Shown here one piece after another: positions 1 through 41,509 of a stretch of DNA of 64,000 nucleotides (position 1 is the first letter of the stretch; the number at the start of each line of letters is the position of its first letter). The stretch comes from Artemia franciscana. Lineage: Eukaryota; Arthropoda; Branchiopoda; Anostraca; Artemiidae. Position numbers and translations under genes: made by a program. Below the pieces are notes generated by a model. It made no database searches. It saw nothing but the letters and a program-made list of their open reading frames with translations, and was not told the origin of the DNA. Location of the stretch: the NCBI RefSeq assembly GCF_032884065.1, contig NC_088879.1, positions 24,228,038 through 24,292,037 on the forward strand, in the 5' to 3' direction.

Positions 1-184
1 GAGTATGTAGTGAACATTCCCCCAAGTCCCTATATAAGTAAATTTTATTGTTGCTCTTAAGTCTGATTTTAATTGCTTCTCAAACTACCTGCTGTACGCA
101 TAGGGCATTGCTAATAAGGGTGGATTCTTTAAAAAGTATTTTGTGGCTAGGAATTTCAAATACATGGCTGTATGAAGCAGAATC

Positions 185-1733
185 AAAAGAAAAAGAAAGT
201 TATTCTTACTGAAAGTAAGCAGCGACATTAAAACTTAAAACGAAAAGAAATTACTTCATAATTGAAAGGGGCTTTTCCTCCTCAACACCCCGCTCTTTAC
301 GCTAAAGTTTGAATCTTTCTCTTAACTCTACTTTTTAAAAAAGTAAAAAACTTTAGCGTAAAGAGCGTGGCGTTGAGGAGGAAAAGCCCCTTTCATTTGC
401 GAAGTAACTTCTGTTCGTTTTAAGATTTAATGTTGCTCCTTACTTTCAGTTAAAAAACTAGTTTTTTTATTTAATTTCTGGACGTTTTTGAATTAATACA
501 TGTTTTGATCTTGGCTCTCCGCACATAAATAATTAAAATGAAATTTGTATATTATTTTTTCTTGGCTATCTCATAGGCTTTCTCATAGTTTAATTGGGTT
601 TCTCATAGTTTTAATCGGAAGATTTTGAAAAAAGAGCGAAGGAGGAGGCCTAGTTGCCCTCCAATTTTTTGATTACATAAATAGGCAACTAGAACTTTTA
701 ACTTTTTACGAATGTTTTCATTAGTAAAAAATATAACTAACTTACGAATTAACTTACGTTTTATTGCATATATGAGGAGGTTCAACCCCTCGTCAATACC
801 TCGCTCTTTACACTAAAGCTTAAATTTTGTCCCAATTCTTTAAGAATTGGGAAGAGAATTGAGAAGTTCGTTTTAAGTTTTAATGCTGCTCCTTACTTTC
901 AGTTGAAAAACTATTCATATTTATTTTTTCATTGTTTTTTAAATAATGCTTAAAAATCCTGAGCCCCTTCATTGAAATTCTCCTCCCCCATGACACATTC
1001 CTCCATGGAAAGATCCTCCCAAGTAACCCCCCTCCCCTCAACCCCCCCCCCCAAAAAAAAAAAGAAGGAAAAAAACTGAAAACCTTTGGTCACTTTCCAA
1101 TAACCATTACTATATGTAAACACAGGTCAAGTTTTGTAACTTGCAGCCCTTCCCACGGGGACGGTGGGGGAGTAATTCGTCCCCAAAGACATAGTTTTTA
1201 GGTTTTTCGAATATGGTGAATAAAATGGTTATCTCAGAATTTTGATCCGGTGACTTTGGGGGAAAATGAGCGTGGGAGGGGGCCTAAGTGCCCTCCAATT
1301 TGTTTGGTCATTTAAAAAGAGCACTAGAACTTTCAACATCTGTTAGAATGAGCCCTCCCACGACATTCTAGGACCACTGAGTCGATACGATACCCCTGGG
1401 GGGAAAACAACAAAAAAACAAATAAACAAGCATCCGTGATTTGTCTTCTGGCAAAAAAGTGCGAAATTCCACATTTTTGTCGATAGGAGTTTGAAACTTC
1501 TACAATACAGTTCTCTGACACGCTGAATCTGGTGGTGCATTTTTCGTTAAGATTGTATGACTTTTAGGGGGTTTTTCAACCTATTTTCTAAAATGAGGCA
1601 AATTTTTTCGGGCTCGTAACTTTTGATGGGACTAATCTTGATGAAACTTATATATTTAAAATCAGCATTAAAATGTGATTCTTTTGATGTAACTATTGGT
1701 ATCAAAATTCCACTTTTTTTAGTTTCGGTTTTA
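185..1733 (+). mobile_element. Family A repeat, long 5' copy
   Basis: This is a copy of the most abundant repeat in the window. It opens with a foldback hairpin (209-449, arms about 105 bp, loop about 35 bp). It then runs through the conserved body: a gctctccgc block near 500, a ggcaactag block near 680, a second inverted pair of ctctttac/gtaaagag motifs near 800, an ataaccattactatatg block near 1100, and a gataggagtttgaaac block near 1480. The last part, which in other copies ends in gtcgctccttac plus a stem-loop, is missing here, so this copy is 3' truncated. No coding capacity is shared with other copies; short open frames inside are not conserved. It is probably a non-autonomous DNA element of Helentron type, by architecture only. 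Confidence 0.8.
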
Positions 1734-2633
1734 TTTTACCAAATTTAGGAAATCCATGATTTCGAAATCATTGGTAAATGCAACTTACAGATTATTTTGT
1801 GTGCAGACTTTTTTTTGGATTCGCGGTGATCTATGAGATGGATGGGAGGTAAAGTATATTTGAGGTCTTATCGAAATTCTAATGATAAGCTACCATAGAC
1901 CCCTCCAATTTGATCAAAAGCCATACATAAAGATGTTTATCGACAGCTCTGATGTAAGATATGAAAGATCTTAGGCAAAAACGAAGGTTTACAAAATGAT
2001 GAATCTGTATCCCCGTAATAAACTTGAACTTGTCCGTTTCCCAGCCACTGTAGCTTATACTCATTGTAGTAAAATTTTAACATGAGTTTTTTGACATTTT
2101 TAGTTTGGCCCTGCCAGCGGCAATATTTTCATTTAAAATTACATTTTTCTTTTCTATACAAAATGACCATATTCGAGTCTGATCGTAAATGATCTGAAAT
2201 ACGAACATGCGATGATTTAGGCATATTCTTTCGGATCGGTTACAACGTCACAACGACTCCCATTGAAAACATTTTCGCAAATCTTACCAAAGAATGAATT
2301 TAAAATGTGTTTAAGGCCTCGCGTAAGTCCAGACATTATACTCCCTAGTCAATTCTTTTTCAGAACTATTATTCGAGGAGAAAATTAGAGATATTATTAT
2401 TCGAGAATTTTTTTGGGAGGATGGGGGGGTTCAACTCTTACAAAAGAAATACCAGGAAAACATGGGAAAATCAAACATTTCGCTGAGAAAACTAAGCATT
2501 TTACAATTTCCACAATTTGTGGAAATTACAAATAAAAAGTACATGTTTTCGGGTTTTTACTTTATGCAGACCGATTTACAAAAATAAATTTAAATAATTG
2601 CTCGTAGTGAAGTGACCAATTTTCTTCATTTTA
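1734..2633. other. Unassigned AT-rich intergenic stretch
   Basis: No gene, RNA or clear repeat structure was recognised between two oppositely oriented family A copies. A 61-codon open frame on the - strand (1879-2064) has no recognisable motif and no splice context. Confidence 0.5.
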
Positions 2634-3574
2634 TCAAACAGTTTGTGGTAACGAACTGTAGTAAGGAGTGACCCGGCTCAATAGTAACCAAAACTCTAAA
2701 AAATGGAATTTTTAATAGCTACATCAACAGAATCGCATTTTAATGCTGATTTTAAATATATCAGTTTTACCCATCTAAAGTTACGAGCCTAAGAAAAATT
2801 GTCTTATTTTAGAAAATAGAGGGGAACACCCGCCAAAAGTAATAAAACCAAAATTACACCATCCGATTCAGTGTATCAGAGAACCCTATTGTGGAAGTTT
2901 CGAGCTCCTATCCACAAAAATGTGGATTTTTTTCCAGGGGCGATCTTATCGAACCAGTTGTCCTAGAATGTTGCGAGCGGGATCATTCCAACGGAAATGG
3001 AGTTATAGTACCCTTTTTAATTGACCCCAAAAAATCCTCCCACGCTAATTATTTTCCCGCAGTCACTGGATCAAAATTCTGAGATAGCCATTTTATTCAG
3101 CATAGTCAAAAAACCTTATAACTATGTCTTTGAGGACGGCTTACTCAACTGAAAGTACGGAGCAGCATTAAAATTTAAAACGAAAAGAATACAGAAGTTC
3201 GCTCGTAAGCTAAAGTTCTAGTTGCCTTTTTAAGTAACCAAAATATTGGAGGGCAACTAAGCCTCCTCCCCCGCTCCTTTTTGCTCAAAGTGATTCACTC
3301 AAAACTATGAGAAAGCCATATAAACATGCAAAATTCGTTTTAATTATTCATCTGTGGAGAGCCAAAATCAAAAAATGCATTAATTCAAAAACGTTCAGAA
3401 ATTAAATAAAAAAAACATGTCTTTGAACTGAACGTAAGGAGCAACATTAAAACTTAAAACGAGCATAAATTATTTCGTATATGAAAGGGGCTGCTCCCTC
3501 CTTAACGCCCCGCTCTTTACACTAAAGTTTGACTCTTTCTCTCAACTCTACCTTTTAATACTGTAAAAACTTTC
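2634..3574 (-). mobile_element. Family A repeat, inverted, internally shortened
   Basis: It begins on the + strand with the family's terminal stem-loop (two 8-bp arms, cagtttgt and acgaactg, around 2639-2658) followed by gtaaggagtgac, which is the 3' end of family A read backwards. The block around the cccacggggac motif is absent, and the body jumps at about 3140 to a hairpin-arm fragment. The hairpin at the other end (from about 3428) keeps one arm and the loop; it stops at 3574 in unrelated sequence, so the second arm is lost. Confidence 0.75.
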
Positions 3575-10916: not shown

Positions 10917-10989
10917 GCCCGGTTAGCTCAGTCGGTAGAGCGTGGGACTTTTAATCCTAAGGTCAAGGGTTCAAGTCCCATATCGGGCG
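10917..10989 (+). tRNA. tRNA-Lys (UUU)
   Basis: It folds as a full cloverleaf: acceptor GCCCGGT with ATCGGGC plus discriminator G; D arm GCTC/GAGC; anticodon stem TGGGA/TCCTA with loop CTTTTAA, anticodon TTT at 10950-10952; variable loop AGGTC; T loop TTCAAGT. The A box (TAGCTCAGTCGG) and B box (GGTTCAAGTCC) are intact, so internal Pol III promotion is expected. The T stem has one A-A mismatch (AAGGG/CCCAT instead of the usual CAGGG/CCCTG), a mild sign of decay or of a minor copy. No intron. Identity as lysine tRNA rests on anticodon and on close match to animal tRNA-Lys(UUU). Confidence 0.93.
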
Positions 10990-10990
10990 G

Positions 10991-10998
10991 TTTTTTTT
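10991..10998 (+). terminator. Pol III terminator T8
   Basis: A run of eight T begins two bases after the tRNA discriminator, the standard RNA polymerase III stop. Confidence 0.85.
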
Positions 10999-11003
10999 CA
11001 CAA

Positions 11004-11350
11004 AATATGAAAAAAACTTCGTTTTCTTAAAGAGTTAAAGAGGCTGTGTCCCAAAGTCGAACCTTAAAACGTACAGGAATTAGGAGAGGCAGTTGGGGGG
11101 CTGCCGCCCCCCCAAATCCCCCGCTTTTAAAGACTCTTTTGTACAGGTTTTTTGTTTTGTTAATTAAAAGAGGGCCTTTCCGAAGCCAAGAGCGGGGGGT
11201 TAGGGGGCGGCAGCCCCCCACAACAAAAAACTTGTACAAAAGAGTCTGTAAAAGCGGGGGGTTGCCTCTCCTAATTCCTGTTCGTTTTAAGGTTCGACTT
11301 TGGGACGCAGCCTCTTTAACTCTTTAAGAAAACGAAGTTTTTTTCATATT
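11004..11350. mobile_element. Snapback (foldback) element directly behind tRNA-Lys
   Basis: The outer arms pair: aatatgaaaaaaacttcg at the left and its complement ending at 11350. Pairing continues inward through ttaaagagttaaagaggct, a ccaaagtcgaacctt block and a taggagaggca block to near 11160, with the right arm from about 11195. The interior carries a second C/G-rich inverted word pair (ggggggctgccgccccccc and ggggcggcagcccccc). Arms are about 120-140 bp with small gaps. It has no coding capacity. Its left edge is 6 bp beyond the Pol III terminator. Confidence 0.75.
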
Positions 11351-11670
11351 ATTTAGCTAAAGAGTCCTTCCATTACCTATAATAACTAACGCTGCTCAAA
11401 AAGGTACTACCATTTTATGGCTCGCTCGAATGAACCTTCTGGGAATAATCTAGCACCACGAACTAAGTGCGGAATGGGAGTTGTGCTGACCTCGAGGCTG
11501 TGTCGGTTTCAATTTTCTTTATTGCGTTCAGCGCTGTACTACTTATCTCTGCTTGTTCAGTTTGCCCTACACCAGTGCTGGGCTCCCCTGGAGTCCCCCC
11601 ATGAAAGAATTCTCCCAGGAAAATTCCCGCTTTTACACCCATTAGAGCTTTTTGTTTTCAGTTATATGGT
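11351..11670. other. Unassigned stretch between snapback and family S
   Basis: A 114-codon open frame (11417-11761) runs out of this stretch into the family S 5' end, so it is not a gene as drawn. No motif was recognised. Confidence 0.35.
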
Positions 11671-14082
11671 TTTTATGGCACTTGGTATTAACCAAGTGAC
11701 ATATAGCAATCGCCAATTCTGTCGGTCTGTCTGTCTGTCGGTCCCGGTTTTGCTACTTTAGGCACTTCCAGGTAAGCTAGGACGATGAAATTTGGCAGGC
11801 GTATCAGGGACGGAACCAGCTTCAATTGGAAATAGTCGTTTTCCCAATTTGACCATATGGGGGGGGGGGGAGTGGGGGGCCAATTAATTTGGAAAAAATA
11901 GAAAAAATGAAGTATTTTTAACTTATGAATGAGTTATAGTATCTTAATGAAATTTCATGTTTGGAATGATATTGTGTCTCAGAGCTCTTATTTTAAATTC
12001 CGACTGGATCTGATGACATTGGGGGGAGTTGGAGGGGGGAAACCTAAAATCTTGGAAAACACTTAGAGTGGAGGGATCGGGATGAAACTTGATGGGAGCA
12101 ATAATCACAAGTCCCAGACACATGATTGACATAATCGGGACGGATCCGCTCTCTTTGGGGTAGTTGGAGGGGGGGGGGGGTAATTCGGAAAAATTAGAAA
12201 AAAATGAGGTATTTTTAGCTTACGAACGGGTGGTCGGATCTCAATGAAATTTGATGTTTAGAAGGATATCGTGTCTTATAGTTCTTATTTTTAATCCCGG
12301 ATCTGGTAACATTGGGGGGGAGGACTTGGGAGGGGAAACCTATATCTTGGAAAACACTTAGAGTGGAGAGATCGGGATGAAACTTGATGGGAAAAATGAA
12401 CACAAGTGCTAGATACATGATTAACATAAACGGAACGGATCTGCTCTCTTTGGGATAGTTGGGGGGGGGGGTTATTTTTGAAAAATTAAAAAAAATTAGG
12501 TATTTTTAACTTACGAACAGGTGATCGGATCTCAAGTAAATTTGATATTTAGAAGGATATCGTGGCTCAGACCAAATCTGATGACATTGTGGGGGAGTTG
12601 GGAGGGGGAAACCTAAAACTTGAAAAACACTTGGATTGTAGGGATCGGGATGAAACTTTGTGGAAAAAATAATCACAAGTCCTAGATACATGATTGACAT
12701 AACCGAAACGGATCCGCTCTCTTTGTGATAGTTGGGGGAGGGGTTAATTCTGAAAAATTAGAAAAAATGAGGTATTTTTAACTTACGAATAGGTTATCGG
12801 ATCTCAATGAAATTTGATATTTAGAAGGTTATCGTGTCTCAAAGCTCTTATTTTAAATCCTGACTGGATCTGGTGACGTTGGGGGAAGTTAGGGGTGGTT
12901 GGAAAAATAAGCAGAAGGCTTGCATACGTGATTTACATAATTGGAACGGATCCGATCAATTGGGGGGGAGGGTAATTCTGAAAAATAAGAAAAAATTACG
13001 TATTTTTAACTTACGAAGGAGTGGTCAGATCTTCATGAAACCTCATATTTAGAAGGACCTCGTAACTCAGATCTCTTATTTTAAATCTGAACCGGATCTA
13101 GCGTAATTGGGGGGGCAGTTAGGGGGAACGGAAATCTTAGAAAATACTAAAAGCGGCGAGATCAGGATGAAAGCGGATGGGAAGAATAAAAACCTGTCTA
13201 AGATACGTGACTGACATAACTGGACCGGATCTGCTCTCTTTGGTGGAATTGGAGGGGGGGGGTAATTTTCAAAATTGAGGTATTTGTAACTTACGGAAGG
13301 GTGACCAGATCATAATGAAATTTGATATTTAGAATGATCTTGTGCTTTAAAGTTCTTATTTTAAATTCCGACCAGATCCTGTGACGATGGGGGGAGTTGG
13401 AGGGGGAAACCGGAATTCTTGGAAAACGTGAAAATTGGGGTATTTTTATCTTACGAATAGATGATCGGATCATAATGAAATTTGATTTTTAGAAAGAATT
13501 CATGTCTCAGAACTCTTATTTCAAATCCCGACCAGATCATTTGTCATTGGGGGGAGTTGGTGGGGGGAATCTTGGAAAAAAAACTTGGAGTGTAGGAATC
13601 GGGATGAAGCTTGGAGGATAGAATAAACAAGTGTCCTTGATACGTGATTGACAGAATCGTACTGGATTTGCTCTCTTTGGTGGAGTTAGGGGGAGGGTTC
13701 AGTGATTTGGCGAGTTTGGTGCTTTTGGACTTCTAGGACGATGAAAATTGATAGGCATGTCAGGGAGCTGCACAATTTGACTTGAAAAAGTCGTTTTTTC
13801 AGATTTGACCATCTGGGGGTCTAAAGGGCGAGGAAAAATTTAAAAAAATTAGGTATTTATAACTTACGAGTTGGTGATCGGATCTTAATGAATTTTGATA
13901 TTTAGAAGGACATCGTGACTCAGAGCTCTTATTTTAAATCCTGACCGGCAATAAGCCTTTGATTTTCCTTTTTAAATCAATCTATTGATTCATAGAATTT
14001 TGTTAGAGCTCATACCATATGATCTCTTGACTCTTAGCTCTTCTCGCCTCGTCACAAGTGCCATATGAGCTCTTGGCTCTTG
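11671..14082 (+). mobile_element. Family S element with internal ~290-bp tandem array
   Basis: The 5' end is ttttatggcac followed by a perfect 8-bp stem-loop (cacttggt-atta-accaagtg, 11679-11698) and a gtctgtctgtctgtcgg run. The centre holds about eight tandem units marked by cttacgaa (11919, 12219, 12513, 12780, 13010, 13290, 13452, 13862), each with gatcggatctcaatgaaattt, G-runs and tagatacatgattgac. The 3' end is the 130-bp segment also found at 8568, with caagtgccata at 14055-14065, the inverse of tatggcacttg at 11674-11684, and a final gctcttg. Subterminal inverted repeats, internal minisatellite and terminal stem-loop resemble Helentron-associated non-autonomous elements. It encodes no protein. 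Confidence 0.7.
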
Positions 14083-15744: not shown

Positions 15745-16497
15745 TACATGAACTTTACCGTCCGTGTTATGCTACGTTCATTAGGGGATTTTAATGTCAA
15801 GGTTGGTAGAGATGGGGATACAGAGTATCCCCAAATTTTGTGTTTGAAGAAAAAGCCGTAACTCTTATAGACTAATGCAATTTTTTAACTATAAGAATCT
15901 AGATATAAGCAATGTTATGTTTAGTAATAAAATAGCCCACAAGTTAACATGTTATTCAAATGATTACAAGACAGCTAACCTTATTGATTATTTTATCATA
16001 AATGGAAGACTAGCAGGCAAGATAAATGTTACATTCTACGGAGTATAGGAATGATGTTACTGGTATTATACGAATTGCTTAGGACACCCCCTTGATTGAC
16101 CGTGTCTCAAACAGTAATCTGATCAAAATAAAGCTCTATTCGGCTTTCTAAGGCTAGAATGAGAGAAAGGTCAATTTTAATTTGGCCAATTGAGATGACT
16201 ATGATGAGTTTTGTAGTTAAAGAATGACAGATTGTGGGATATTCCCTTTTTCGGCCAACCACCCAAGGCCAAACGAAAAACAGGTCGTCCTCAAATGAAT
16301 TGGGATAAATTTTTCATTTACTTTTCTGTTTTTTCAATTCGTCGCTGTTCATTCAATTTACGGGTACAAGGTCGAAATAAAAGTGACTCATGGCAAAATG
16401 TAAAGGAATATATAATTTTTGCTATATATTTGAACGATAGGGGCCTTAAGGTTAGAATATAGTGGAGCTGCAGTCAAAATGTTTTAACAACGATAAG
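15745..16497 (+). mobile_element. LINE (RTE-like, family B), endonuclease joined to tail
   Basis: The + strand encodes an APE-endonuclease block: LGDFNVKVGRDGD near 15784 and, in another frame, SNDYKTANLIDYFIINGR near 15957, the N-x-D-Y-I type end of the domain. Then, with no reverse transcriptase between, comes the C-terminal tail: DRVSNSN near 16095 and FGQPPKAKRKTGRPQMNW near 16248. The whole RT domain is therefore missing. Frames are broken by several stops. It is bounded on the right by the family A copy starting at 16498. Confidence 0.7.
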
Positions 16498-18233
16498 TCA
16501 AACAGTTCGTGGTAATGAACTTTAGTAAGGAGCGACCCGGCTCAATAGTAACCAAACCTCTAAAAAATTGAATTTTGATATCAATAGCTACATCAAAAGA
16601 ATAGCATTTTAATGCTGATTTTAAATATATAAGTTTCATCAAGTTTAGTCTTACCCATCTACGAGCCTGAGAAAATTTGCCTTATTTAGGAAAATAGGGG
16701 GAAACACCCCCTAAAAGTCGTAGGATCTTAACGAAAATGACACCATCAGATTCAGCGTATCAGAAAACCCTCAAGCTCCTATCTACAAAAATGTGGAATT
16801 TTGTATTTTTTGCCAGAAGACAAATCACAGGTGCGTGTTTATTTGTTTGTTTTTGTTTTGTTTTTTTCCTCAGGGGTCATCGTATCGACCAAGTGGTCCT
16901 AGAATGTCGCAAGAGGGCTCATTCTAACGGAAATGAAAAGTTCTAGTGCCCTTTTTAAGTGACCAAAAAAATTTGAGGGTATTTAGGCCCCCTCCCACGC
17001 TCATTTTTTTCCCAAAGTCAACGGATCAAAACTTTGAGATAGCCATTTGGTTCAACATAGTCGAAAACTATATTAACTATGTCTTTGGGTATGACTTACT
17101 CCCCCACAATCCCTGGGGGAGGGGCTGCAAGTTACAAACTTTGAACAGTGTTTACATATAGTATTGGTTATTGGGAAGTGTACAGACGTTTTCAGGGGGA
17201 TTTTATTTTGTTTGGGGGGGGGGGGTGGTGTTGAGGAGAGGGGGCTATGTTGGAGGATCTGTCCTTGGAGGAATCTGTCATGGGGGAAGAAAAATTCAAT
17301 GAAAAGGGCGCAGGATTCTCTAGTACTACTATAATAAAACAATGAAAAATAAACAGGAAAACTTTTTTTCAAATGAAAGGAAGAAGTAGCATTGAAACTT
17401 AAAACAAACAGAGATTATTACGCATATGAGGGATTCTAAAAATATTTTAGCATAAAGAGCGAGGTATTTAGGAGGAGATAAATACCTTGCTCTTTATGCT
17501 AAAGTATTTTTAGTAATTTCAACTATTTATTCTACGGCCTTTCTGATTCAGGGGTCATTCTTAAAGAATTGGGACAAAACTTACGATTTAGTGTAAAGAG
17601 TGAGGTATTAACGAGGGTACAAACTCCCTCGTATACATAATAAAAATGTAAGGCTATGAAAGTTTGTTACGTAAGTTAATTCTTAAGTTACGTATATTTT
17701 TTACTAATAAAAACGTTCGTTAAAAATTAAAAGTTCTAGTTGCCTTTTTAAGTAACCGAAAAATTGGAGGGCAACTAGGCCTCCTTCTCCACCCCTTATT
17801 TCTCAAAATCGTCTGATCAAAACTAAGAGAAAGCCATTTATCCAAAAAAAAGAATTAATATACAAATTTCATTTTAATAATTTATGTGTGGAGAGCCAAA
17901 ACCAAACATGCTTTAATTCAAAAACTTTCAGAAATTAAATATAAAAAAACTGATTTTTACAGCTGAAAGTAAGGAGCGACATTAAAACTTAAAACGAACA
18001 GAAATTACTCCGTATATGAAATGGGTTGTCCCCTCCGCAATCCCTCGCTCTTTACGCTAAAGTTTAACTCTTTGCCACAATTCTACTTTTTAAAATAATT
18101 AAAAGCTTTAGGCTAAAGAGCGAGGGATCGCGGAGGGGACAACCCATTTCATATACGGAGTAATTTCTGTTCGTTTTAAGTTTTTGTCGCTCCTTACTTT
18201 CAGATAAAAAAATCAGTTTTTTTTTTATTTAAT
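16498..18233 (-). mobile_element. Family A repeat, nearly full length, inverted
   Basis: This is the most complete copy. On the + strand it begins tcaaacagttcgtgg (terminal stem-loop) and gtaaggagcgacccggctca, runs through all body blocks in reverse, and ends with the foldback hairpin (17963-18203) and the leader complement ttttttatttaat at 18233. Length about 1.74 kb. The words gtaaggagcgac stand in opposite orientation near both ends, forming subterminal inverted repeats. No open frame spans it. Confidence 0.85.
17963..18203. repeat. Foldback hairpin of the inverted family A copy
   Basis: Arms 17963-18068 and 18101-18203 pair almost completely (three small differences noted by eye) around a loop of about 32 bp. 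Copy-specific words ggttgtcccctccgcaatcc and ggatcgcggaggggacaacc stand opposite each other. Confidence 0.9.
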
Positions 18234-18335
18234 TTCCATGAAGGAGGAATTGTTTTCATAGCATTTTCCCCAGTCAACAGCGTCAATCCTTGGATTATAC
18301 CCAAATGCATACTTGTATGGCCAGAAAATATAAAC
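18234..18335 (-). CDS. Candidate coding exon fragment cut by family A
   Basis: After a possible acceptor (actatgtag, exon first base 18335) the - strand reads VYIFWPYKYAFGYNPRIDAV and continues DWGKCYENNSSFME up to the family A boundary. The composition (W, Y, P, D, G) is unlike translated AT-rich spacer. I do not recognise the protein. The frame runs into the element's aattaaataaa leader and stops, so either the exon is truncated by the insertion or a donor was lost. Evidence is only an open frame of 34 codons and an acceptor-like site. Confidence 0.3.
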
Positions 18336-20633: not shown

Positions 20634-20930
20634 TACAAAAAAAAACAAGTTTTCTTTAACTGAAATTAAGGAGCGACATTAAAACTTAAAATGACCAGAA
20701 ATTATTCCGTATATTTAAGGGGCTGTGCCCTCCTCAATGCCCCGCTCTTTACGCTAAAATTTGACTCTTTCTCACAACTTTACTTTTTAAAACAATAAAA
20801 CACTTAGCTTAAAGAGCGGGGCATTGAGGAGGGGACAGCCCCTTTCATATACCGAATAATTTCTGTTCGTTTTAATTTTTAGTGTCGCTCCTTACTTTCA
20901 ATTAAAAAAACTTGTTTTTTTTTATTTAAT
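20634..20930. mobile_element. Solo family A hairpin
   Basis: Only the foldback part of family A is present: leader aaaaacaag, arm from 20660, loop, second arm to 20900, and the inverted leader cttgttttttttt plus atttaat. Both ends are the same sequence inverted. It sits between a Penelope-type flank and LINE reverse transcriptase sequence, showing the hairpin exists without the body. Confidence 0.8.
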
Positions 20931-26671: not shown

Positions 26672-27248
26672 AGAAGAGCCGTAAGACCAATCATCACCTG
26701 GGGGATGTTCTTCTTACCGTTCGTTTATTCGCAATATTTTCACATTGCATGATTTTCCCTATAAATTTCCAAGGTCGATTGAAATAATTGTGAACCCAAC
26801 TGACCCCGAAATTGCATTTATCCAATTTATTTTGTTTAGCCTTAAAGTAGCGCAAATTATATTCATTGTCAATAATGCTTCAATAAATATTGTATTAATT
26901 TACTCCAATAAATTCTTCAAATATTATATAGAGTAATTAAAAATAAATATCTCAATTAATATATAAATTTCCACCTCAAAAAGTAGGTAAACTATGGGTT
27001 GTATTGAGACTTTAATTTTAATGACTGCGAGATTTCTTGCTTTTAAAAATAATGTCAAGGTTTGCAGCAAGTATAACACCACTTGTTGTGATATTGCCTA
27101 TGGATGCAGAAGAATTCCCATCGAATTTTTTATGATTTTTGTTATTATTTAAGTTATTTTCTAATATTCTTCTGGAGAGTGGAACGAAACTCGATGTAAG
27201 GGTTCAAGACACAAGGTTCTTTTTTCAGTCTATAGCTTTGTGTCTATG
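26671..27248. other. Unassigned stretch, possibly a retroposed sequence
   Basis: AT-rich, no gene recognised. If the poly(T) is a tail, the retroposon would lie here on the - strand. Confidence 0.35.
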
Positions 27249-28680
27249 ATTAAATAAAAAAAACAAGTTTTTTTAACTGAAAATAAGGAGCGACATTAAA
27301 ACTTAAAACGCACAGAAATTACTTCGTATATGAAAGAGGCTGCTTCCTCATCAACGCCCCGCTCTTTACGCTAAAGTTTGACTCTTTCTCTCAATTCTTC
27401 TTTTTAAAACAGTAAAAAACTTTAGCGTAAAGAGCGGGGCGTTGATGAGGAAGCAGCCTCTTTCATATACGAAGTAATTTCTGTGCGTTTTAAGTTTTAA
27501 TGTCGCTCCTTACTTTCAGTTAAAAAAAACTTGTTTTTTTTTATTTAATTTCTGAACGTTTTTGAATCAATGCATGTTTTGATTTTGGCTCTCCGCAGAG
27601 GAATAATCAAAACGAAATTTCCATATTTTTTTTTTGACTCAATGGCTTTCTCATAATTTTGATCGAATGATTTTGAGAAAAAAAAAGCGGGGGACGAAGC
27701 CTAGTTGCCCCCCGATTTTTTGGTTAATTAAAAAGGCAACTAGAACTTTTAATTTTTTACGAATCTTTTTATTGGTAAAAGATTTACGTAACTTATAAAT
27801 TAGCTTACGTAAAGAACTTTTGTATTCTCATATTTTTATTACATATATGAGGGGATTCGCCCCATCGTCAGTACCTCGCTCTTTACACTAAAGCTTAAAT
27901 TTTATCCCAATTCATTAAGAATGACCCCCTGAATCACAAAAGCCGTAGAATAAGTAGTTGAAATTACTGAAAATACTTTAGCGTAAAGAGCGAGGTATTA
28001 GAAGGAGGTGAGCCCCTCATATGGGTAATAATTTCTGTTTGTTTTAAGTTTTATTGCTGTTCCTTACTTCCAGCTGAAAAAAGCTTTTTCACTTTTATTT
28101 TTTAATTGTTTTTTTTCTAAATAATGCTAGTAAATCCTGCTCTCCCTTCATGGAAATTTTCTTCTCCCATTACAAATTCTCGAAGGAAAGTTCCCCCAGC
28201 ATATCCCCCTCTTCTCAACCCCTCCCCCAAACCAAAAAAAATCCTCCTGAAAACGCCTGTATACTACCCAATAACCATTACTATATGTAAGCACAGGTCA
28301 AAGTTTGTAACTTGTAACCCCTCCCACGGGGACTGTGGGGGAGTAAGTCGTTCCCAAAGACATAGTTATAAGGTTTTTCGACTACGCTGAATAAAATGGC
28401 TATCTCAGAATTTTGATTCGTTGACTTTGGGAAAATAATTAGCGTAGGAGGGGGCCTAGGTGCCCTCCAATTTTTTTGGTCACTTAAAAAGGGCACTAGA
28501 ACTTTTCATTTCCTTTAGAAGGAGCCCTCTTGCAACATTCTAGGACAACTGGGTCGATACGATCACCCCTGGGAAAAAAAAACAACAAATAAACACGCAT
28601 CCGTGATCTGCCTTCTGGCAAAAAATGCAAAATTCCACATTTTTGTAGATAGGAGCTCGAAACTTCTACAGTAGGTAGTA
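27249..28680 (+). mobile_element. Family A repeat, long copy with best hairpin
   Basis: Leader attaaataaaaaaaacaag from 27249, hairpin 27277-27519, then the body to a gtaggtag word at 28675, where it stops before the 3' stem-loop. The second inverted pair (ctctttacac/gcgtaaagagcgaggtatt) lies at about 27880-28000. Confidence 0.85.
27277..27519. repeat. Near-perfect foldback hairpin of family A
   Basis: The arms pair over about 105 bp. ggctgcttcctcatcaacgc faces its exact complement gcgttgatgaggaagcagcc, and cgcacag faces ctgtgcg; both words differ from all other copies. Confidence 0.9.
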
Positions 28681-28682
28681 TA

Positions 28683-28819
28683 ATTAAGAGAAAGAGTCAC
28701 ACTTTAGCGTAAAGAGCGGTGAAAGAAGCCCTTTCATATACGAAGTAATTTCTGTTCGTTTTAAGTTTTAATGTCACTCCTTACTTCCCGTTAAAAAAAA
28801 CTTGTTTTTTTTATTTAAT
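28683..28819 (-). mobile_element. Partial family A hairpin, opposite orientation
   Basis: The loop remnant taattaagagaaagagtc is the complement of the usual loop, followed by one arm to 28787 and the leader complement. It directly follows the preceding + copy. Confidence 0.65.
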
Positions 28820-29280
28820 CTACCCTGAGAGCCACCATCCAAAAATGAAAAAATCATTTCAGCTTGTAATAGATTACTGTAACTGCAAAGAAATATTCAA
28901 AAGAAATAAGATTGCGCCATCCAGTTGAAATGAGTTGAAATGTTCAACCTAAGTTACAGTTGATTCCTAGCTTTCTTTGTGACCAGGTGGAATGCGCTAT
29001 GAAATTTAAAATAGCCTGAGTAAAAAGGTAAGTTAATACCTTCCAGATGACATGTTATATTATAATCCTTCTGCTCATCTGAAGAGAAGAGTCCCATGTT
29101 CTTCTTTGTACTGGTGCAAGATTGTGTTCCATTTTTATGTTTGTTTTATGGATATTCCAAGCTTTAATACTAGAATAACTTTTAATCATAATTTAAAAGT
29201 CTTAATTTTTGCTAGAGTCAAGATTTATGTGATGTAAAAGATAATCTAAAGACTCTTTTAAAAATTTGAATGTTTTATCA
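28820..29280. other. Unassigned AT-rich stretch
   Basis: Nothing recognised. Confidence 0.4.
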
Positions 29281-30584: not shown

Positions 30585-32165
30585 ATTTGACTCTTTCTCT
30601 TAACTCTACATTTTAAAACAGTAAAAAAAAAACTTAAGCGTAAAGAGCGGGGCGTTGAGAAGGAAAAGCCCCTTTCATATACGGAGTAATTTCTGTTCGT
30701 TTTAAGTTTTAATGTCGCTCCTTACTTTCATTTAAAAAACTTGTTTTTTTTTATTAAATTTCTGAACGTTCTTGAATTAATGCATGTTTTGATTTTGGCT
30801 CTCCGCAGAGGAATAATTAAAACAAAATTTGTATATTTATTTTTTTTGACTAAATGGCTTTCTCATAATTTTGATCGAATGATTTTGAGAAAAAAAGAGC
30901 GGGGGAGGAAGCCTAGTTGCCCTCCGATTTTCGGTTAATTAAAAAGGCAACTATAACTTTTAATTTTTTACGAATCTTCTATAAGTAAAAGATATACGTA
31001 ACTTATAAATTAGCGTACGTAAAGAACTTTTGTATTCTTATGTTTTTATTACATATATGAGGGGGTTTGCCCCCTCGTCAGTACCTCGCTCTTTACACTA
31101 AAGCTTCAATTTTGTCCCAATTCATTAAGAATGACCCCTGAAACACAAAAGCCGCAGAGTAAATAGTTGAAATTACTAAAAATACTTTAGCGTAAAGAGC
31201 GAAGTATTAGGAGGAGGTTAGCCCCTCATATGAGTAATAATTTCTGTTCGTTTTAAGTTTTAATGCTGCTACTTACTTCCAGCTGAAAAAAAAAATTATT
31301 ATTTTTTTTAAGTAATACTAGTAAATCCTGCGCTCCCTTTATGGAAAATTTCTTCCCCCATGACAAATTTGTCGATTGAAAGCTCCTCCAGCATATCCAC
31401 CTCTTCTCAACCCCTGCCTCCAACCGAAAAATCCTCCTAAAAACGCCTGTAAACTTCCCAATAACCATTACTATATGTAAGCACTGGTCAAAGTTCTGAA
31501 CTTGTAACCCCTCCCACGGGGACTGTGGAGGAGTAAGTCGTCCCCAAAGACATAGTTATAAGGTTTATCGACTACGTTAAATAAAATAGCTATCTCATAA
31601 TTTTGATCCGTTGACTTTGGGAAAATAATTAGCGTGGGAGGGGGCCTAGGTGCCCTCTAATTTTTTTTGTCACTTAAAAAGAGCACTAGAACTTTTTATT
31701 TCCGTTAGAATGAGCCCTCTTGCAACATTGTAGGGCAACTGGGTCGATACGATCACCCCTGGGAAAAAAACCGAAAAAAAAACAAATAAACACGCATCCT
31801 TGATCTACCTTCTGGCAAAAAATATAAAATTCCACATTTTTGTAGATAGGAGCTTGAAACTTCTACAGTAGGGTTCTCTGATACGCTGAATCTGATGGTG
31901 TTATTTTCGTTAAGATTCTATGACTTTTAGGGGGTGTTTTCTCCTATTTCCTAAAATAACGCAAATTTTCTCAGGCTTGTAAATTTTGATGGCTCGTAAC
32001 TTTTGATGAGTAATACTTAACTTGATGAAACTTATATATTTAAAATCATCATTAAAATGTGATTCTTTTGATGTAGCTATTAATACCAAAATTCCATTTT
32101 TAGACTTTTGGTTACTATTGAGCCGGGTCGCTCCTTACTACAGTTCGTTACCACGAACTGTTTGA
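30585..32165 (+). mobile_element. Family A repeat with intact 3' terminus, half hairpin
   Basis: It starts inside the hairpin loop (tttgactctttctcttaac), keeps the second arm, and continues through all body blocks to the 3' end gtcgctccttactacag plus stem-loop 32141-32160 (cagttcgt-tacc-acgaactg) and tttga. With the inverted copy at 16498-18233 it defines both termini of the family. Confidence 0.85.
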
Positions 32166-32169
32166 TTTT

Positions 32170-32920: not shown

Positions 32921-35198
32921 TTCTGCAATTATTGTGATTTATATTAGGTATTTGTGAGTTATTGTGAATAGGTATTGTGATATTTACTGTGATATATTTG
33001 ATTTATTGTCATGTTTCTTCACACTTCGTGTGAGTTGCTTTTGATTGTAATTTTAAGATTCTACGTATAATATTCCTTCTTCTGGACTAACCACTATTTT
33101 TTTTTTAGATTTTTAACATTTTATGTATTTGGTTTTACAAAATTTTTATTCGATTGTAAATTTTTGAAGTAAATTTCAGCTTAATACAATACAATAAGCA
33201 CACACAATAATGTAAACCAACGAGATGAGTAAGCTTATATTGTCCAACCTAGGACTATATCCAGGCATAAGTGGGAGAAGAGATTAGGATGCAGTTAAAC
33301 TGAAATCAACTCTTAATATCAAACAAATAGAAATTTTAAACAAATAGAAGTAATTTTTTTAAACTTACGTTTCAGTTCAGAAGAGAGGATAAATTACAGT
33401 CTTTTTCCAAGAAATAGAAAATAATAACTGTAAGTGAAGGAAGTTTTAGCTACAATTTTCCCCTAAATTGAAAAGGTTGCAAAAATAGGTATTTTACCCC
33501 GAAGTTGTTTATACCTCTCAGTGCCCAAAAAGCCCACTACCACACCACCGTCAAAGGTTTTTTTTTGTCCGCCTCATCTCGCTCGGGCCTTTAGACTCTT
33601 TAACTGTAACCTGATTTCACATCAATCTGCTCAGATCATTAATTCAGACTGCTCAGATCAATAATTCATTTGCTAGAGTTTTTCGAGTTTCAAGGTTTTT
33701 ATTTTCTTTTTGTTTCAGGTAATTTGAGCCACGCCCACTCATGATCTATTAATTGCTGTATATCACGTGATTAGAGTTATAGATGTTGCTACTTAAACAC
33801 AATCACTGGATATAGCAGTATAGATTGCTTGGAACTTAAATCAGGAACGTTTTCATAGATGGATAGATTTGAAATGCTACAAATTAAATTAAAATCAACC
33901 TTAGTGTTTGCTTCACAAAAACATGAATCAGTTCCGTCTACTTTTTGTAGACATTTTTGAAAATAAATCTGTTGTAAGTTTGTTTGAGTCTTCTCTAAAA
34001 GTAGAGCCATTCATTAGCAAGACTACAAATCACCAGTTTAATTTTATATCCAAAATACAGTACAATCCATCCTCCCCTCTCTCAGGAACATTTACGAACT
34101 AAAATTATTTGGGTCTTGGACTTGCAGTTTCTCATATTAGAAGTAGTAGAGTCTCACAGTTCTGAAAGTATATATCACGCCTTAGGTAAGAAAGTGAATT
34201 CTAACCAAAATAGTTATGTTTAAAAAAATACCCGGGGCGTCAAGCTATCTTAGAAGCAAATCAAATTCTGACTGCGTGAAGTATACAAGGGCTTACAAAC
34301 CTACTCTGTTCAAAGTTTCACCCTTTCTCCCTTTTTGATCATCTATAATTGCAACTTCCAGCCCACTCGTAGCGGCCGATCACTTCAATTAGCACTATAG
34401 TGAAAGTTGAAAAAAACTATTCAGCCCCCCCCCCCAGCTGAAACTTAGGGACTTCATAAATCTCGTCAAAAACTATATAATTAAAGCATCCCTAGATATA
34501 GTTCAGTTGTCTTTAGTATACCTTTGCCTTTACGGTGCTATATGGCTCATTTTTGCTGGTCTTGGGAGATTGAATCCAACGTTGGATTCGATCCCACGTT
34601 GAATTTTTTTTTTAGTTGTTTACAAAAATATTCGAGAATATTGCAGAAAAAAAGCCCTCAAATATTTTTATTACCGACTATTAAAAATTAACGCAAAAAC
34701 TGCGTTACAGTTACCCCCCCCCTAAAAAAAGATTAAGGAGCACCGTACACAAAATTAATATAATTATGTTAAGTTACCATCTAGTGTGTCTCTTTAACTC
34801 AAAGATAACGCTTGTACAAAAAAAAGAGAAAAAAGAAAATACAGTTATCATTAATATTTTTTATATTAAAAATTTTTATATACAATTAACTTCGTTCAAA
34901 TATTGCAAGTGTGTATATCATAACAAATAAATTTAAAAGAATCACATTCGCGAGTGAACATAAAAGTCAAATTAGAAATGAACACAAATAAAAGATGTGC
35001 ATTAGTCAAACAGTATAGCCCAGCATATAGCCTAGAGCTATATCCAGAGAAAGTGTTGAAATAGATCTGTATATTCTAGCAAATGATTTTGTCTATGGAA
35101 AAGTTTTTTGTCAAAGCTGGTTTAATATCAGAGATTACATCAGATTTAATCTGGATTATATCAGAGATTAAAGGTTGAATATTGAGGGCTCTAAAATT
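32921..35198. other. Gene-free stretch with an 18-bp palindrome
   Basis: No gene recognised. A perfect 18-bp palindrome, gaatccaacgttggattc, lies at 34572-34589. Open frames at 33789-34102 are short, on both strands, with no motif. Confidence 0.4.
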
Positions 35199-36332
35199 TT
35201 GCTCTTTTTCTCAAAGCTACTTTTTAAAACAGTAAAACACTTTAGCGTAAAGAGCGGGGCATTGAGGAGGGAACAGCTCCTTTCATATACGGAGTAATTT
35301 CTGTCCGTTTTAAGTTTTAATATTGCTCCTTACTTTCAGTTTAAAAATAACTTGTTATTTTTATTTACCCTACTTTTTTTGTTTAGCCTACTAGTTACCC
35401 TCCAATTTTTTGATTATTTAAAAAGGCAACCAGAACTTTAATTTTTTTTACGAACATTTTTATTAGTAAAAATGTACTTAACTTACGAATTAATTTACGT
35501 AACGAAATTCTATATTCGAATGTTTTCATTACATGCATAATGGAATTCACCCCTTCGTCAGTACCTCGCTCTTTACACTAAAGCTAAAATTGTGTTCCAA
35601 TTCCTTAGGAATGACCCCCGAATCACAAAGGCCGAAGAATAAATAGTTGAAATTAATAAAATTACTTTGGCGTAAAGAGGCAGGTATTAGGAGGAGGTGA
35701 ACCCCTCACATACGTAATAATATCTGTTCGTTTTAGGTTTTAATGCTGTTCCTTACTTTCAGTTGAAAAAACTTTTCCATATTTATTTTTTCACTGTTCT
35801 TTAAAAAAAAAATGCCGAAAAATTCTGCACCCCCTTCATGGAAATTTTTTTCCTCCATAACGAATTCCTCCGTGGAAATATCCACCCGCAAAACCCACTC
35901 CCCTCAAACCCTCCCCCCAACCAAAAAACCTCCTTAAAGCGTCTATACACTTCCCAACAACCATTACTATGTGTAAACACTGGTCAAAGTTTGTACCTTG
36001 CAGCCCCTCCCACGGGGACTCTGGGGCAGTAAGTCGTCCTTAAAGACAAAGTTATTAGGTTTTTCGACTATGCTTAATAAAATGGCTATCTCAGAATTTT
36101 GATCCGGTGATTTAGAGGGAAAATTGGTTTGGGAAGGGGCCTAGGTGCCCTCCAATCTTTTGGTCACATAAAAAGGGCACTAGAACTTTTAATTTCCATT
36201 AGAATGAGCTGTCTCACGACATTCTAGGACCACTGGGTCGATATGATCACACCTGGGAAAAACAAAACAAAAAACAACAAATAAACATGTATTTGTGATC
36301 TGTCTTGTGGCAAAAAATCCAAAATTCCACTT
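35199..36332 (+). mobile_element. Family A repeat interrupted by family S
   Basis: It starts in the hairpin loop, keeps one hairpin arm (to 35340) and the body up to caaaattccac, where family S begins. The remaining A sequence does not resume after S, so the 3' part was lost. Confidence 0.75.
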
Positions 36333-37923
36333 TTTTATGGCACTTGGTATTAACCAAGTGACATATAGAAATCATAAATTCTGTCGATCTGTCGGTCCCG
36401 AATTTGCCACTTTAGGCACTTCCAGGTAAGCTATAACGATGAAATTTGGCAGGCGTATCGGAGACCGAACCAGATTAAATTAGAAATAGTCTTTTTCCCG
36501 ATTTGACCATCTGGGGGGGGGGGGAAGTGGGAGCCCGTTAATTAAAATGAAGTATTTTTAACTTACGAACGGTTGATCAGATGTTAATGATATTTGATGT
36601 TTGGAAGAATATTGTGTCTCAAAGGTGTTATTTTATATCCCGATCGGATCTGGTGAAATTGGGGGAGGAGGGGGTTGGGAGGGGGAAACCTAAAATCTTG
36701 GAAAAACTTAGAGTGGAGGGATCAGGATGAAACTTGGTTGGAAAAATAAGCACAAGTCTCAGATACATGATTGACATAACCGGAAGGGATCCGCTCTCTT
36801 TGGGGTTGTTGGGGGGGGGGGGGTAATTCTGAAAATTAGAAAAAACGAGGTATTTTTAACTTACTAACGGGTGATCGGATCTCAATGAAATTTGATATTT
36901 AGAAGGATATCGTGTCTCAAAGCTCTTATTTTAAATCCCAACCGGATCTGGTGACATTGGGGGGAGTTTGGGGTGGGGGAACCTAAAATCTTGGAAAACG
37001 CTTAGATTGGAGAGATCAAGATGAAACTTGGTGGGAAAAATAAGCAGAAATCTTAGATACGTGATTTACATAATTGGAACGGATCCGCTTTATTGGTGGG
37101 GGGGGGGTAATTCTGAAAAATTAGAAACAAATGGCTTATTTTCCACTTACGAAGGAGTGATCGGATCTTCATGAAACTTCATATTTAGAAGGACCTCATA
37201 ACTCAGATCTCTTATGTTAAATCTCAACCGGATCCAGCATAATTGGGGGGGGGGCCAGAAATCTTAGAAAATACCGGAACATCCTGACCATCCAGATCAG
37301 GATGAAACTTGATGGGAAGAATAAAAACCTGTCTAAGATACGTGACTGACATAACCGGACCGGATCTTCCTTCTTTGGTGGAGTTAGGGGGGGGGTAATT
37401 TGGAAAAATGAGGTATTTGTAACTTACGAAAGGGTGACCAGATCTTAATGAAATTTCAAATTTGGAAGGATCTTGTGCTTTAAAGCTCTAATTTTAAATT
37501 TCGACTAGATCCTGTGACATTGGGGGAAGTTGGAGGGGGAAACCGGAATTCTAGGAAAACGTGAAAACTGAGGCATTTTTATCTTATCAATAGGTGATCG
37601 GATCTTAGTGAAGATTGATATTTAGAAGGAATTCATGTTTCAGAGCTATTATTTCAAATCCCGACCAGATCTTTTGACATTGGGGGGAGTTGGAAGCGGA
37701 AATCTTGGAAAACACTTGAGTGGAGGAATCGGGATGAAGCTTGGTGGATAGAATAAGCAAATGTCCTTGATACATGATTGACGTAACCGTACCGGATTCA
37801 CTCCCTTTAGGGGAGCTGGGGGAGGGTTTCAGTGATTCGGTGAGTTTGGTGCTTCTGGACGTGCTAGGACGATGAAAATTGGTAGGTGGGTCAGGGAGCT
37901 GCACAAATTGACTTGATAAAGTC
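36333..37923 (+). mobile_element. Family S element, 3' truncated
   Basis: It has the same 5' start as at 11671 (ttttatggcac, stem-loop, gtctgtcgg) and five tandem units marked at 36560, 36860, 37146, 37422 and 37583. Unit variants occur in the same order as in the first copy. It ends near gacttgataaagtc, short of the 3' terminal segment. Confidence 0.75.
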
Positions 37924-38814
37924 AATATTATTTTAATCCACACAAATGAGGCACAAAATGCATATAGCAATGCACACTTAAAAGTAGCCATGAACATGAA
38001 TCTTATTAGGTTTACTATTCGATTTGTGACATTTGAATATTTACTGCGTAATAATACAAATTGCCGAGACTAACTTCGTTATGAAACAATAGATGCTTCT
38101 AAGGAACTGCTTCGACAGATTGCCCGAAAATACACTATAGAATACAGCAACTATAGTAATGTGCGAGTATTTTCAGTATTGTGCATAAAAGTTTCAAAAA
38201 CTCTGCAGACCCGCTATTATCAATTAGCAGATATTATATACGGAAAAACTACGCCAAAATGGGTGGTAACGTTGCACGGTTAAACATTTCAATTTTTTTT
38301 TTTAAACTATCTCAATTATATTATTATATCATCAATAATTAATTTTGGGATTTGTGTAACTTTAAATATTTTCCCTCAGGATCTTCTTCAAGAGAATCCA
38401 TTTTTAAAAATTTTACACAGCCATTCTTTGTAGCATAGCTAAAAAATAAATCCGACAAATTATATCTTTGGAGATAATATGGCCAAAGATGTTTTGGACA
38501 TTAATACTGCAAAGTTTCGACATCTACTTCGTTATGAATAAAAAGGTGGCTCTAAAGAACTTCTTTCGCGTATCATACGAAAATACACTTTAAAAAAACA
38601 GCAGCTGTGTGAACATTTTCAATATGGTGTGTAAAAATATTTAATAACTCTGTAGACTTGCGGGTATCAATTTACAGATATAGTCCAGGAAGGGAAAGTT
38701 TTGACCTGGAACAAATTGCAAGCGAGATAAGTCTTTGACTATACAACTCAGAAAAATAAACTGATTCGAAATGTTCAAGTTTGCTCATCTAGCTGATTCA
38801 CAAGTATGTTTTTT
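37924..38814. other. Gene-free part of duplicated segment
   Basis: A pair of diverged related stretches (around 38060-38230 and 38500-38680, both with cttcgttatgaa, aagaact/aaggaactgctt and gaaaatacact words) indicates an old ~440-bp tandem duplication. No gene recognised. Confidence 0.45.
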
Positions 38815-39540
38815 GGATGTTCTAAATGATTTTGAGCAGGTAAAATTTGCATTTCCATATAAAGGCGTAAAAAGAAAAAATTAATGTCTACAATAGGGTA
38901 ATTGATCACATTGACTATAAAAATCACCTTTACTTGAACTCAATTTGGAATTTTGACTTTGGAGGTTGAGGTTGATTCTGTTGGGGTAAATTCATGTTTT
39001 CATTCAAATGCGTACAACAACAAAATGCATGTCTAGAATAGGGTACTAGATCACGATGACTGTAAAAATCACCTTTGTTTGAATTTAAAAATAAAGATTG
39101 GTGTTTTAGGCTAATGTTGATTTTGAGGAGGTGAAATTCGTGTTCTTTTTAGAGGCGTACAACAGCAAAATTGATGTCTAAAATAAAGTACTAGATCTCG
39201 GTGATTATGAAAATCTCCTTTGTTTTAACGCAAAATTAAAATTTAGGTTTTGTAAGGTTGAGGCTGATTTTGATGGGACGAAATTCGTATTTCCATATAA
39301 AGGTGGACGACAACAAAACTGATGCGCTCTAGCATAGGGCACTTATATTATTATGAAAATCTTTTATTTGAATGTAAAATTAAAATTAGATATATTTCGA
39401 GGAGCTGAAATCTGTGTTTTATATAAAGGTTTTACAGCAACAAAATTGATGTCTAGAGTAGGGTGACTGGTCACGGTCATTATGAAAGTTACCTTTATTT
39501 GAACGTAAAATTAAAGGTTTCATTTATCTTTTTAGGTTGA
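38815..39540 (+). repeat. Tandem array, five ~145-bp units
   Basis: The marker atgtctag (or close variant) stands at 38884, 39029, 39174, 39322 and 39449. Each unit carries a tagggta word, tatgaaaatcacctttgtttgaa, ggttgaggttgatttt and aggcgtacaacaacaaaa. Units are diverged by roughly 15-25%. Confidence 0.8.
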
Positions 39541-39654
39541 ATTATGAATATGTAGCAAACTACTCTTAAACTTTAAATTGTGGATATGAATTATATCGTT
39601 TGCAAAGAAGAAATTCATTGAAGAGTCAGGAAAGGTCATTTCTGAAGAGAAAGG

Positions 39655-39755
39655 TGCAGCTTATTGAAACTCATATATTTGGAATCAGCATAATAATTCA
39701 ATCCTTTTGATATATATATATTGATATCAAAATTTCGTTTTTTAGAGTTTGAAAG
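39655..39755 (+). mobile_element. Old family A 3' fragment
   Basis: gaaactcatatatttggaatcagcat followed by ttttgata and tcaaaatttcgttttttagag matches the region just before the family A 3' end, with many changes. Confidence 0.5.
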
Positions 39756-40577: not shown

Positions 40578-40720
40578 ATTAAATAAAAAAGCAAGTTTTA
40601 TTTCAACTGAAAGTAGATAGTGACATCAAAACTTGAGCGAGCAGAAACTATTCCGTAATGATCTAGGCGACTGCCTTGTTAATCCCCCGTTCTTTCTTTA
40701 AATCTTCATAGCACCTTATT
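40578..40720 (+). mobile_element. Old family A 5' fragment
   Basis: attaaataaaaaagcaag leader, then ctgaaagtagatagtgacatcaaaac and a decayed hairpin arm. Much more diverged than other copies, so an ancient insertion. Confidence 0.5.
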
Positions 40721-40989
40721 TAAAATCATCCATGAGCGATTCAAAAAAGGTAGTTAAACCGTAATTGCAAGCGTTCCTTTTGCCTATCACCTTTCAAAAC
40801 ATTTGAACTGAAAACTTTGTTGTTTAAACAAAATATACATGAAAAAAATTTCCATTCTCGAGCTATTGTGAAAAAATATTTTCATCATATTTTTATTTCC
40901 CTTGTGTTTGGTTTTTACGTCATGATGGCTCAAAGCTAAACTTTTGTTATGCGTAATAATTTGTGTTCACTTCAACTTTTAATGTTTTC

Positions 40990-41400: not shown

Positions 41401-41509
41401 ACTCCTAGTAGTTGCAAACTTTATTAAAAATAAAGCTACTGATAGAAATTTTCACAACTTTTAGTTTTTTTCTCGACATGTTGAGAGAAAACACTATTTC
41501 GGTGTGGCT

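Follow-up and report, generated by a model that had tools for sequence, protein, structure and literature searches.

Matched arms and inverted loops in the terminal hairpin of a dispersed repeat: a probable product of template switching

Why should the two arms of a hairpin, in a repeat present in many dispersed copies, resemble each other more closely than they resemble the same arms of sister copies? The 64-kb stretch of DNA analysed here (the ‘window’) raises this question through one hairpin family, hairpin A. An initial annotation proposed that its arms co-vary copy by copy, that independent mutation could not give this, and that either one arm is copied from the other or a paired RNA is under selection. 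We asked how far the pattern holds, and which of several processes may have produced it.

Hairpin A and the repeat that carries it

The window looks eukaryotic in character: its GC content is about 35%, it has five stop-to-stop ORFs of at least 150 aa, and dispersed repeats are many. Within it, an inverted-repeat search identified four full hairpins of family A (Table 1; copies are named by position in kb), each of ~300 nt with two ~125-nt arms and a loop of 37-46 nt. All four had been placed by the initial annotation, although their true extents reach further than it had given; the 20-mers that it drew from facing arms are in the sequence too, but three of the four arm pairs have one mismatch and only the 27.3-kb pair is perfect. 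Overall, the arms are 83% complementary in the 0.2-kb copy and 96% in the 27.3-kb copy. The 20.7-kb copy is a standalone hairpin that adjoins a reverse-transcriptase fragment (RVT_1, E 1.4e-7).

Table 1. Coordinates of hairpin A, the composite repeat and hairpin B within the window
Feature	Position (nt)	Strand	Remarks
Full hairpin A, 0.2 kb	178-480	+	arms 178-310/348-480, loop 311-347; composite interior to right
Full hairpin A, 18.0 kb	17932-18234	-	core arms 17984-18065/18103-18184, loop 18066-18102; outer arm parts 17932-17981/18185-18234; interior to left; loop inverted relative to interior
Full hairpin A, 20.7 kb	20638-20923	none	arms 20638-20757/20804-20923; no composite interior
Full hairpin A, 27.3 kb	27256-27540	+	arms 27256-27379/27417-27540; interior to right
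Half hairpin A, 3.4 kb	3400-3573	-	one arm and loop; interior to left; loop inverted relative to interior
Half hairpin A, 30.6 kb	30586-30764	+	loop and inner arm; outer arm absent from about the loop boundary
Half hairpin A, 35.2 kb	35191-35367	+	loop and inner arm; outer arm absent from near the loop boundary
Half hairpin A, 28.8 kb	28677-28820	-	inverse orientation; loop only partly kept
Composite	16495-18236	-	most complete, about 1.74 kb; hairpin A 5', hairpin B inside, 3' GTCGCTCCTTACT and small stem-loop
Composite	30586-32168	+	3' end intact (self-comparison)
Composite	27248-28675	+	3' truncated (self-comparison)
Composite	178-1730	+	match stops about 50 nt before 3' end
Composite	35191-36336	+	3' truncated (self-comparison)
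Composite	2631-3573	-	internal deletions, 3' end intact (self-comparison)
Hairpin B of 27.3-kb composite	27836-28040	+	arms not homogenised
Hairpin B of 30.6-kb composite	31046-31250	+	control
Hairpin B of 35.2-kb composite	35527-35730	+	control
Nested palindrome in hairpin B of 18.0-kb composite	17436-17513	-	34-nt arms, 2 mismatches, 10-nt centre

A profile search of the window with the arm gave 32 arm-like matches at E 0.1, of which 12 score at least 92 bits; eight of these belong to the full hairpins, and the other four, at 3.4, 28.8, 30.6 and 35.2 kb, are unpaired. All four unpaired arms stop inside the loop or at most about 9 nt from it, their ends falling at query positions 131, 125, 177 and 155 where the loop of the reference hairpin spans 134-170. 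The motif ATTAAAT stands at the outer arm ends of the 18.0-, 27.3- and 28.8-kb copies; it is not found at the outer end of the 0.2-kb copy, and in the 20.7-kb copy it is present at one side only. Scans with exact 20-21-base patterns of collections of viral and genome contigs, which are not eukaryotic, returned no matches, such patterns being blind to diverged copies.

Comparison of the window with itself places hairpin A at the outer (5') end of a composite dispersed repeat of ~1.7 kb, whilst also finding the hairpin alone; further, more diverged pieces of the composite lie near 5.3, 7 and 8.7 kb. The composite carries a 13-nt inverted subterminal motif near both ends (AGTAAGGAGCGAC / GTCGCTCCTTACT), with the 5' motif tens of nt inside the end and a second copy of it held in the large 5' hairpin. 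At 32.1 kb its 3' end consists of the palindrome CAGTTCGTTACCACGAACTG followed by TTTGA, and slight variants of the same end close the copies at 2.6, 5.6, 9.0 and 16.5 kb. No protein-coding gene of the composite was recognised in a Pfam scan of six of the 37 listed ORFs. The loss of one arm in three of six composites (3.4, 30.6 and 35.2 kb) raised the idea of a retro-type 5' truncation, which was dropped because the 3' end is also missing in three of the six (0.2, 27.3 and 35.2 kb). The half hairpin at 28.8 kb abuts the truncated 3' end of the 27.3-kb composite in inverse orientation (28660-28820).

The window holds several other features of note. Within 10917-11350 lies a tRNA gene (Rfam RF00005, 66.2 bits), the sole Rfam match of the window at the gathering threshold; 15 nt past it stands a near-perfect hairpin, with 88-nt arms that are 98% complementary and a second, inner hairpin, which shows a weak relationship to arm A (E 2.7e-7 and 3.9e-6). 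Two sites, 11670-13979 and 36332-37923, share a clustered repeat with G-rich motifs, its units measuring about 160-300 nt and the longest matches between the sites being 77-81% alike. The ORF at 52867-53181 has no Pfam match and contains LYGLPKIHKPNLPLRPI, which we take to be typical of Penelope-like reverse transcriptases. Lastly, 38022-46026 and 56003-64000 are copies of ~8 kb that differ by 63 substitutions and 19 gap columns in 8011, the second starting soon after a gap of 100 Ns; the pair is either a recent segmental duplication or an assembly or haplotype duplicate. Between these copies, an arm-like stretch at 40.6 kb has four substitutions in its left-arm region without an evident right-arm partner, and a hairpin at 45 kb differs by a 4-nt gap only.

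Arms and loops compared among copies

The proposed co-variation is borne out when all eight full-hairpin arms are compared over a core of 103 aligned columns. The two arms of a copy differ at 10 (0.2 kb), 6 (18.0 kb), 14 (20.7 kb) and 1 (27.3 kb) of these columns, a mean of 7.75, against between-copy means of 15.0 for left with left, 17.2 for right with right and 16.3 for left with right; the true left/right pairing ranks first of the 24 possible pairings. Matched variable cells number 133 of 164, where shuffling gives 107.2 +- 3.7 and none of 20000 shuffles reaches 133, and an independent tool finds both sides changed in 15 of 103 stem pairs, as opposed to 5.7 when shuffled (0 of 500) and 0-1 once the register is slid. 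Counted against the majority, the changes shared by both arms are 5, 9, 4 and 7 in the four copies, and random placement, a null which ignores shared ancestry, gives 0.18-0.47 and reaches these counts in 0, 0, 117 and 0 of 200000 simulations; some of the both-arm variants are found in more than one copy. The 27.3-kb copy alone departs from the other full hairpins at core positions 7, 35, 61, 67 and 74, and does so in both arms at four of the five; its variant at position 67 is present also in the 3.4-kb arm.

Trees of the arms tell a similar, if graded, story. In the maximum-likelihood tree of the eight core arms, each left arm groups with its own right arm in all four copies (supports of 97.9/98 at 18.0 kb, 96.7/98 at 27.3 kb, 74.5/67 at 0.2 kb and 68.3/66 at 20.7 kb), and the unconstrained tree has a likelihood equal to that of the tree constrained to own-arm pairs; the AU column of this topology test is degenerate because two of the candidate trees are identical. 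Clustering of left arms with left arms, named in the initial annotation as the pattern contrary to its reading, is absent from hairpin A in the window, where a tree separating left from right arms is 55.6 lnL worse (SH p 0), and is present in hairpin B. With all 12 arms at full length, own-arm pairs are recovered only for the 18.0-kb (99.3/100) and 27.3-kb (94.8/96) copies, the left arm of the 0.2-kb copy and the right arm of the 20.7-kb copy being closer to the 30.6-kb arm than to their own partners. The own-arm effect is thus strong in the 18.0- and 27.3-kb copies, and weaker or partial in those at 0.2 and 20.7 kb.

Individual claims about the arms fare accordingly. A contrast between cgcacag and cgaacag holds for the 27.3-kb copy against the 18.0-kb copy, but the left arms at 0.2 and 20.7 kb read otherwise, and the matching of ttcg and tccg within copies is imperfect at 20.7 and 0.2 kb. 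Similarly, the statement that independent mutation cannot give the pattern fits the double changes, but differences of an ordinary, unmatched kind are present as well, in 28 of 103 core columns. The alleles at core sites 48 and 69 follow patterns that disagree between copies, and variants at columns 48, 66 and 69 are at odds with the tree of the interior (copies at 178-480, 27256-27540, 30586-30764 and 3400-3573); for example, a deletion common to the 0.2- and 30.6-kb copies is missing at 27.3 kb. Such conflicts suggest either exchange between copies or repeated change.

The loop provides a record of a different kind. When the loops of the six orientable copies are read from the outer end towards the interior, with that at 27.3 kb as reference (the 20.7-kb copy has no interior to orient it and the 28.8-kb copy only a partial loop), those at 0.2, 30.6 and 35.2 kb align as read, with scores of 27.0, 28.0 and 25.0. 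The 18.0- and 3.4-kb loops align only when reversed, scoring 21.0 and 26.5 as opposed to -4.0 and -7.5 as read, with shuffle means of -4.7 and -7.2. The loop is therefore flipped in two of six copies. These sit on separate branches of the interior tree, in which the 3.4-kb copy groups with 27.3/30.6 (93.1/91, about 470 columns) rather than with the 18.0-kb copy; at least two inversion events are therefore required. That the 3.4-kb copy has lost an arm and yet has an inverted loop suggests that it was once a full hairpin. We think it less probable that hairpins formed anew, several times over, from single arms, because the loop is homologous across copies and is inverted even in the 3.4-kb copy, which is armless on one side.

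Hairpin B, inside the same composite, serves as a control. In the three copies with both arms testable, its own arms differ at 14, 16 and 23 of 62 positions, whereas left arms differ from one another at 3, 9 and 11, and right arms at 4, 9 and 10. Hairpin B is therefore not homogenised, and since its left arms cluster with left arms, the arms of a hairpin in this composite are not always coupled. The hairpin B of the 18.0-kb composite contains a new nested palindrome that is missing from its three sisters (27.9, 31.1 and 35.6 kb), which looks like a trace of fold-back synthesis within the composite family.

Template switching and its alternatives

Synthesising these observations, we suggest that template switching during replication (‘quasipalindrome correction’) is probably responsible for both the homogenisation of the arms and the inversion of the loop in hairpin A. 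A polymerase crossing the hairpin would occasionally change template and copy one arm from the other, and a switch spanning the centre would turn the loop over. In this way, a mutation striking either arm of a source copy would be written into its partner or erased; daughter copies would inherit the homogenised arms, and ordinary mutations accumulating later at each insertion would blur the match. We infer that the copying is the work of a replicative switch, rather than of a recombination or transposition step, and that the switch takes place in source copies. In the 0.2-kb copy the two arms have a matched one-base deletion, found also in the single arm at 30.6 kb; this suggests copying in source copies before their spread and plain decay thereafter. 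The arms of hairpin B are more diverged than those of hairpin A, and its spacer is longer, as would fit a copying process that requires near-identical and closely spaced arms.

Certain observations count against template switching. There are only four full hairpins, two of which (0.2 and 20.7 kb) are weakly self-paired, and the loop is longer than the inverted spacers so far published in the texts cited below. The matched changes are also unevenly distributed, with 12 of 16 copy-specific matched columns falling in core 60-83 as opposed to 4 of 28 mismatch columns (Fisher p 1.7e-4), a clustering not to be expected from random copying along the stem alone. We have no firm explanation for it, constraint on the flanking stem segments being the simplest account. 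In every one of the 15 copy pairs the arms have diverged less than the interior (means of 0.122 and 0.174; nearly equal, at 0.083 and 0.084, in the closest pair, 27.3/30.6), so that some constraint on them may exist.

Two of these features are among those that selection for a paired RNA, such as a dsRNA or small-RNA precursor maintained by compensatory changes, would claim as its own: covariation along the stem is strong, columns 60-83 are variable yet keep their pairing, and the arms diverge less than the interior. We nevertheless regard this explanation as very doubtful, given the kinds of change involved. Nine of the 15 double-changed pairs are of transition type and could be reached through G-U, but the other six are of transversion type (one of them, at alignment column 76, adjoins mismatches in the 0.2-kb copy) and, like the matched deletion, could not have passed through a G-U intermediate. 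The 31 own-arm mismatch cells, which include 15 transversions and 4 gaps, show no preference for wobble pairs, with only 5 G-U on the + transcript or 7 on the -. An inverted loop in two of six copies, the loss of an arm in four and the lack of any Rfam match at the hairpins (gathering threshold) also speak against a functional RNA. Copying at the level of DNA is favoured by the flipped loops, by double changes of transversion and indel type without wobble bias and by the new palindrome; taken with the own-arm pairs, these uphold one half of the original proposal, arm copying, and disfavour the other. Copying by an assembler or polisher, in which reads of one arm were used to correct the other, we hold to be highly improbable: the window does contain a gap of Ns (55743-55842), and the 8-kb pair could be an assembly duplicate, but 1-14 own-arm mismatches remain, loop orientations differ and some family variants recur in the unpaired half copies.

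Among processes acting on DNA, ectopic gene conversion or crossing over between the arms during break repair, with the loop inverted by exchange within the hairpin, would likewise yield homogenisation as well as loop inversion, and could draw on the conflicting alleles at sites 48 and 69 as signs of exchange between copies (or of repeated change). We think it rather unlikely; arms of ~125 bp lying ~37 nt apart are short for classical conversion, and the nested palindrome of hairpin B resembles a fold-back product more than the outcome of conversion. A point in its favour is that likeness of terminal repeats within copies of Galileo appears in a paper concerned with ectopic recombination (PMC2775673). 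Unlikely also, and slightly more so, is regeneration coupled to transposition, whereby every transposition would rebuild the outer arm, the loop priming fold-back synthesis on the inner arm; arms would match at birth, the loop would alternate between ‘flip’ and ‘flop’, and half copies would be unfinished or opened products. The two loop orientations, the ends of the four unpaired arms at or close to the loop and ATTAAAT at the outer ends of three copies all agree with this, and own-arm mismatches could be decay after insertion. Saying this, ATTAAAT is missing or one-sided in the remaining two full hairpins, the far end of the composite is a small stem-loop only, and maintenance of an ancestral hairpin accounts for the same data; no replication gene was recognised among the six of 37 ORFs scanned, though a non-autonomous repeat need carry none. 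A chromosomal repeat with parvovirus-like end replication, its hairpin rebuilt at each transposition by borrowed enzymes, seems to us more unlikely still.

Relation to known systems

Parvovirus terminal hairpins occur in two orientations (flip/flop), in the context of terminal-hairpin transfer. The composite resembles them in the two orientations of its loop, but it is a dispersed genomic repeat with a hairpin at one end only, the parvoviral trait of hairpins at both ends giving way to a small stem-loop at its 3' end. Foldback-type elements bear a long terminal inverted repeat at either end; of the composites, just one has a half hairpin opposite its hairpin end (28677-28820), the standalone 20.7-kb hairpin is fold-back in shape, and no related transposase was identified in the Pfam scan of six of 37 ORFs.

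Galileo is already known to have terminal repeats that are closer within a copy than between copies, as two of the four copies in Table 2 of PMC2775673 show (1L/1R 0.0018, 2L/2R 0.0071); copies 4 and 5 of that table show 0.0628 and 0.0570 within, and 0.0071 (4L/5L) and 0.0036 (4R/5R) crosswise. Similarly, a possible homogenisation of TIR-220 is hinted at for two of three complete Tetris elements in the available portion of PMC4079207. As described there, the repeats of Galileo and Tetris lie at both extremities of the element, whereas the arms of the composite stand together at one end around a short loop.

Likeness to the HINE/DINE-1 Helentrons, as far as the accessible part of PMC4067079 describes them, extends to the 13-nt inverted subterminal motif, the 3' palindrome and the lack of recognised coding capacity. 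Helentrons carry inverted subterminal motifs of 12-15 nt near both ends; the 5' one, however, lies 2-4 nt from the end according to the same source, as opposed to tens of nt in the composite with its large 5' hairpin and second motif copy. Nor does the T-T insertion rule of Helentrons hold, the base after TTTGA at five composite 3' ends being T, T, C, A and A; on these two grounds, membership of the group was rejected.

The closest parallel lies with quasipalindromes. Homogenised arms and an inverted spacer are the pattern attributed to template switching between inverted-repeat arms in yeast coding genes (PMC8604942), the same pattern has been described for RNA-gene hairpins (PMC8794818), where 61.0% of instantaneous compensatory changes are of G-U-reachable types, and quasipalindrome template switching is reported in yeast RNase H2 mutants (PMC3820800). 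As in quasipalindrome correction, the arms of hairpin A appear to have been made alike, its centre is inverted in some copies and double changes would arise in one step. It differs from the published cases in being a dispersed repeat with ~125-nt arms, and in the size of what is turned over; inverted spacers measure 2-5 bp in the available text of PMC8604942 and up to 7-8 nt in that of PMC8794818, as opposed to a loop of 37-46 nt here. The mechanism is thus known, as is, for Galileo and tentatively for Tetris, the likeness of terminal repeats within a copy. Among the matches listed, from a part of the literature, none describes homogenisation of transposable-element hairpins by template switching, and the setting seen here, in which a dispersed non-coding repeat has a terminal hairpin with flip/flop loops of 37-46 nt and an unhomogenised internal control, is apparently undescribed among them.

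A multi-copy repeat, whose loop records orientation and whose hairpin B has stayed unhomogenised, amounts to a natural experiment on how often arms are copied over evolution. It also carries a warning, in that strong covariation of a stem, usually read as a sign of a functional RNA, can come from DNA copying alone; what hairpin A displays seems to be a familiar slip of replication in uncommonly clear form, and not an RNA gene.
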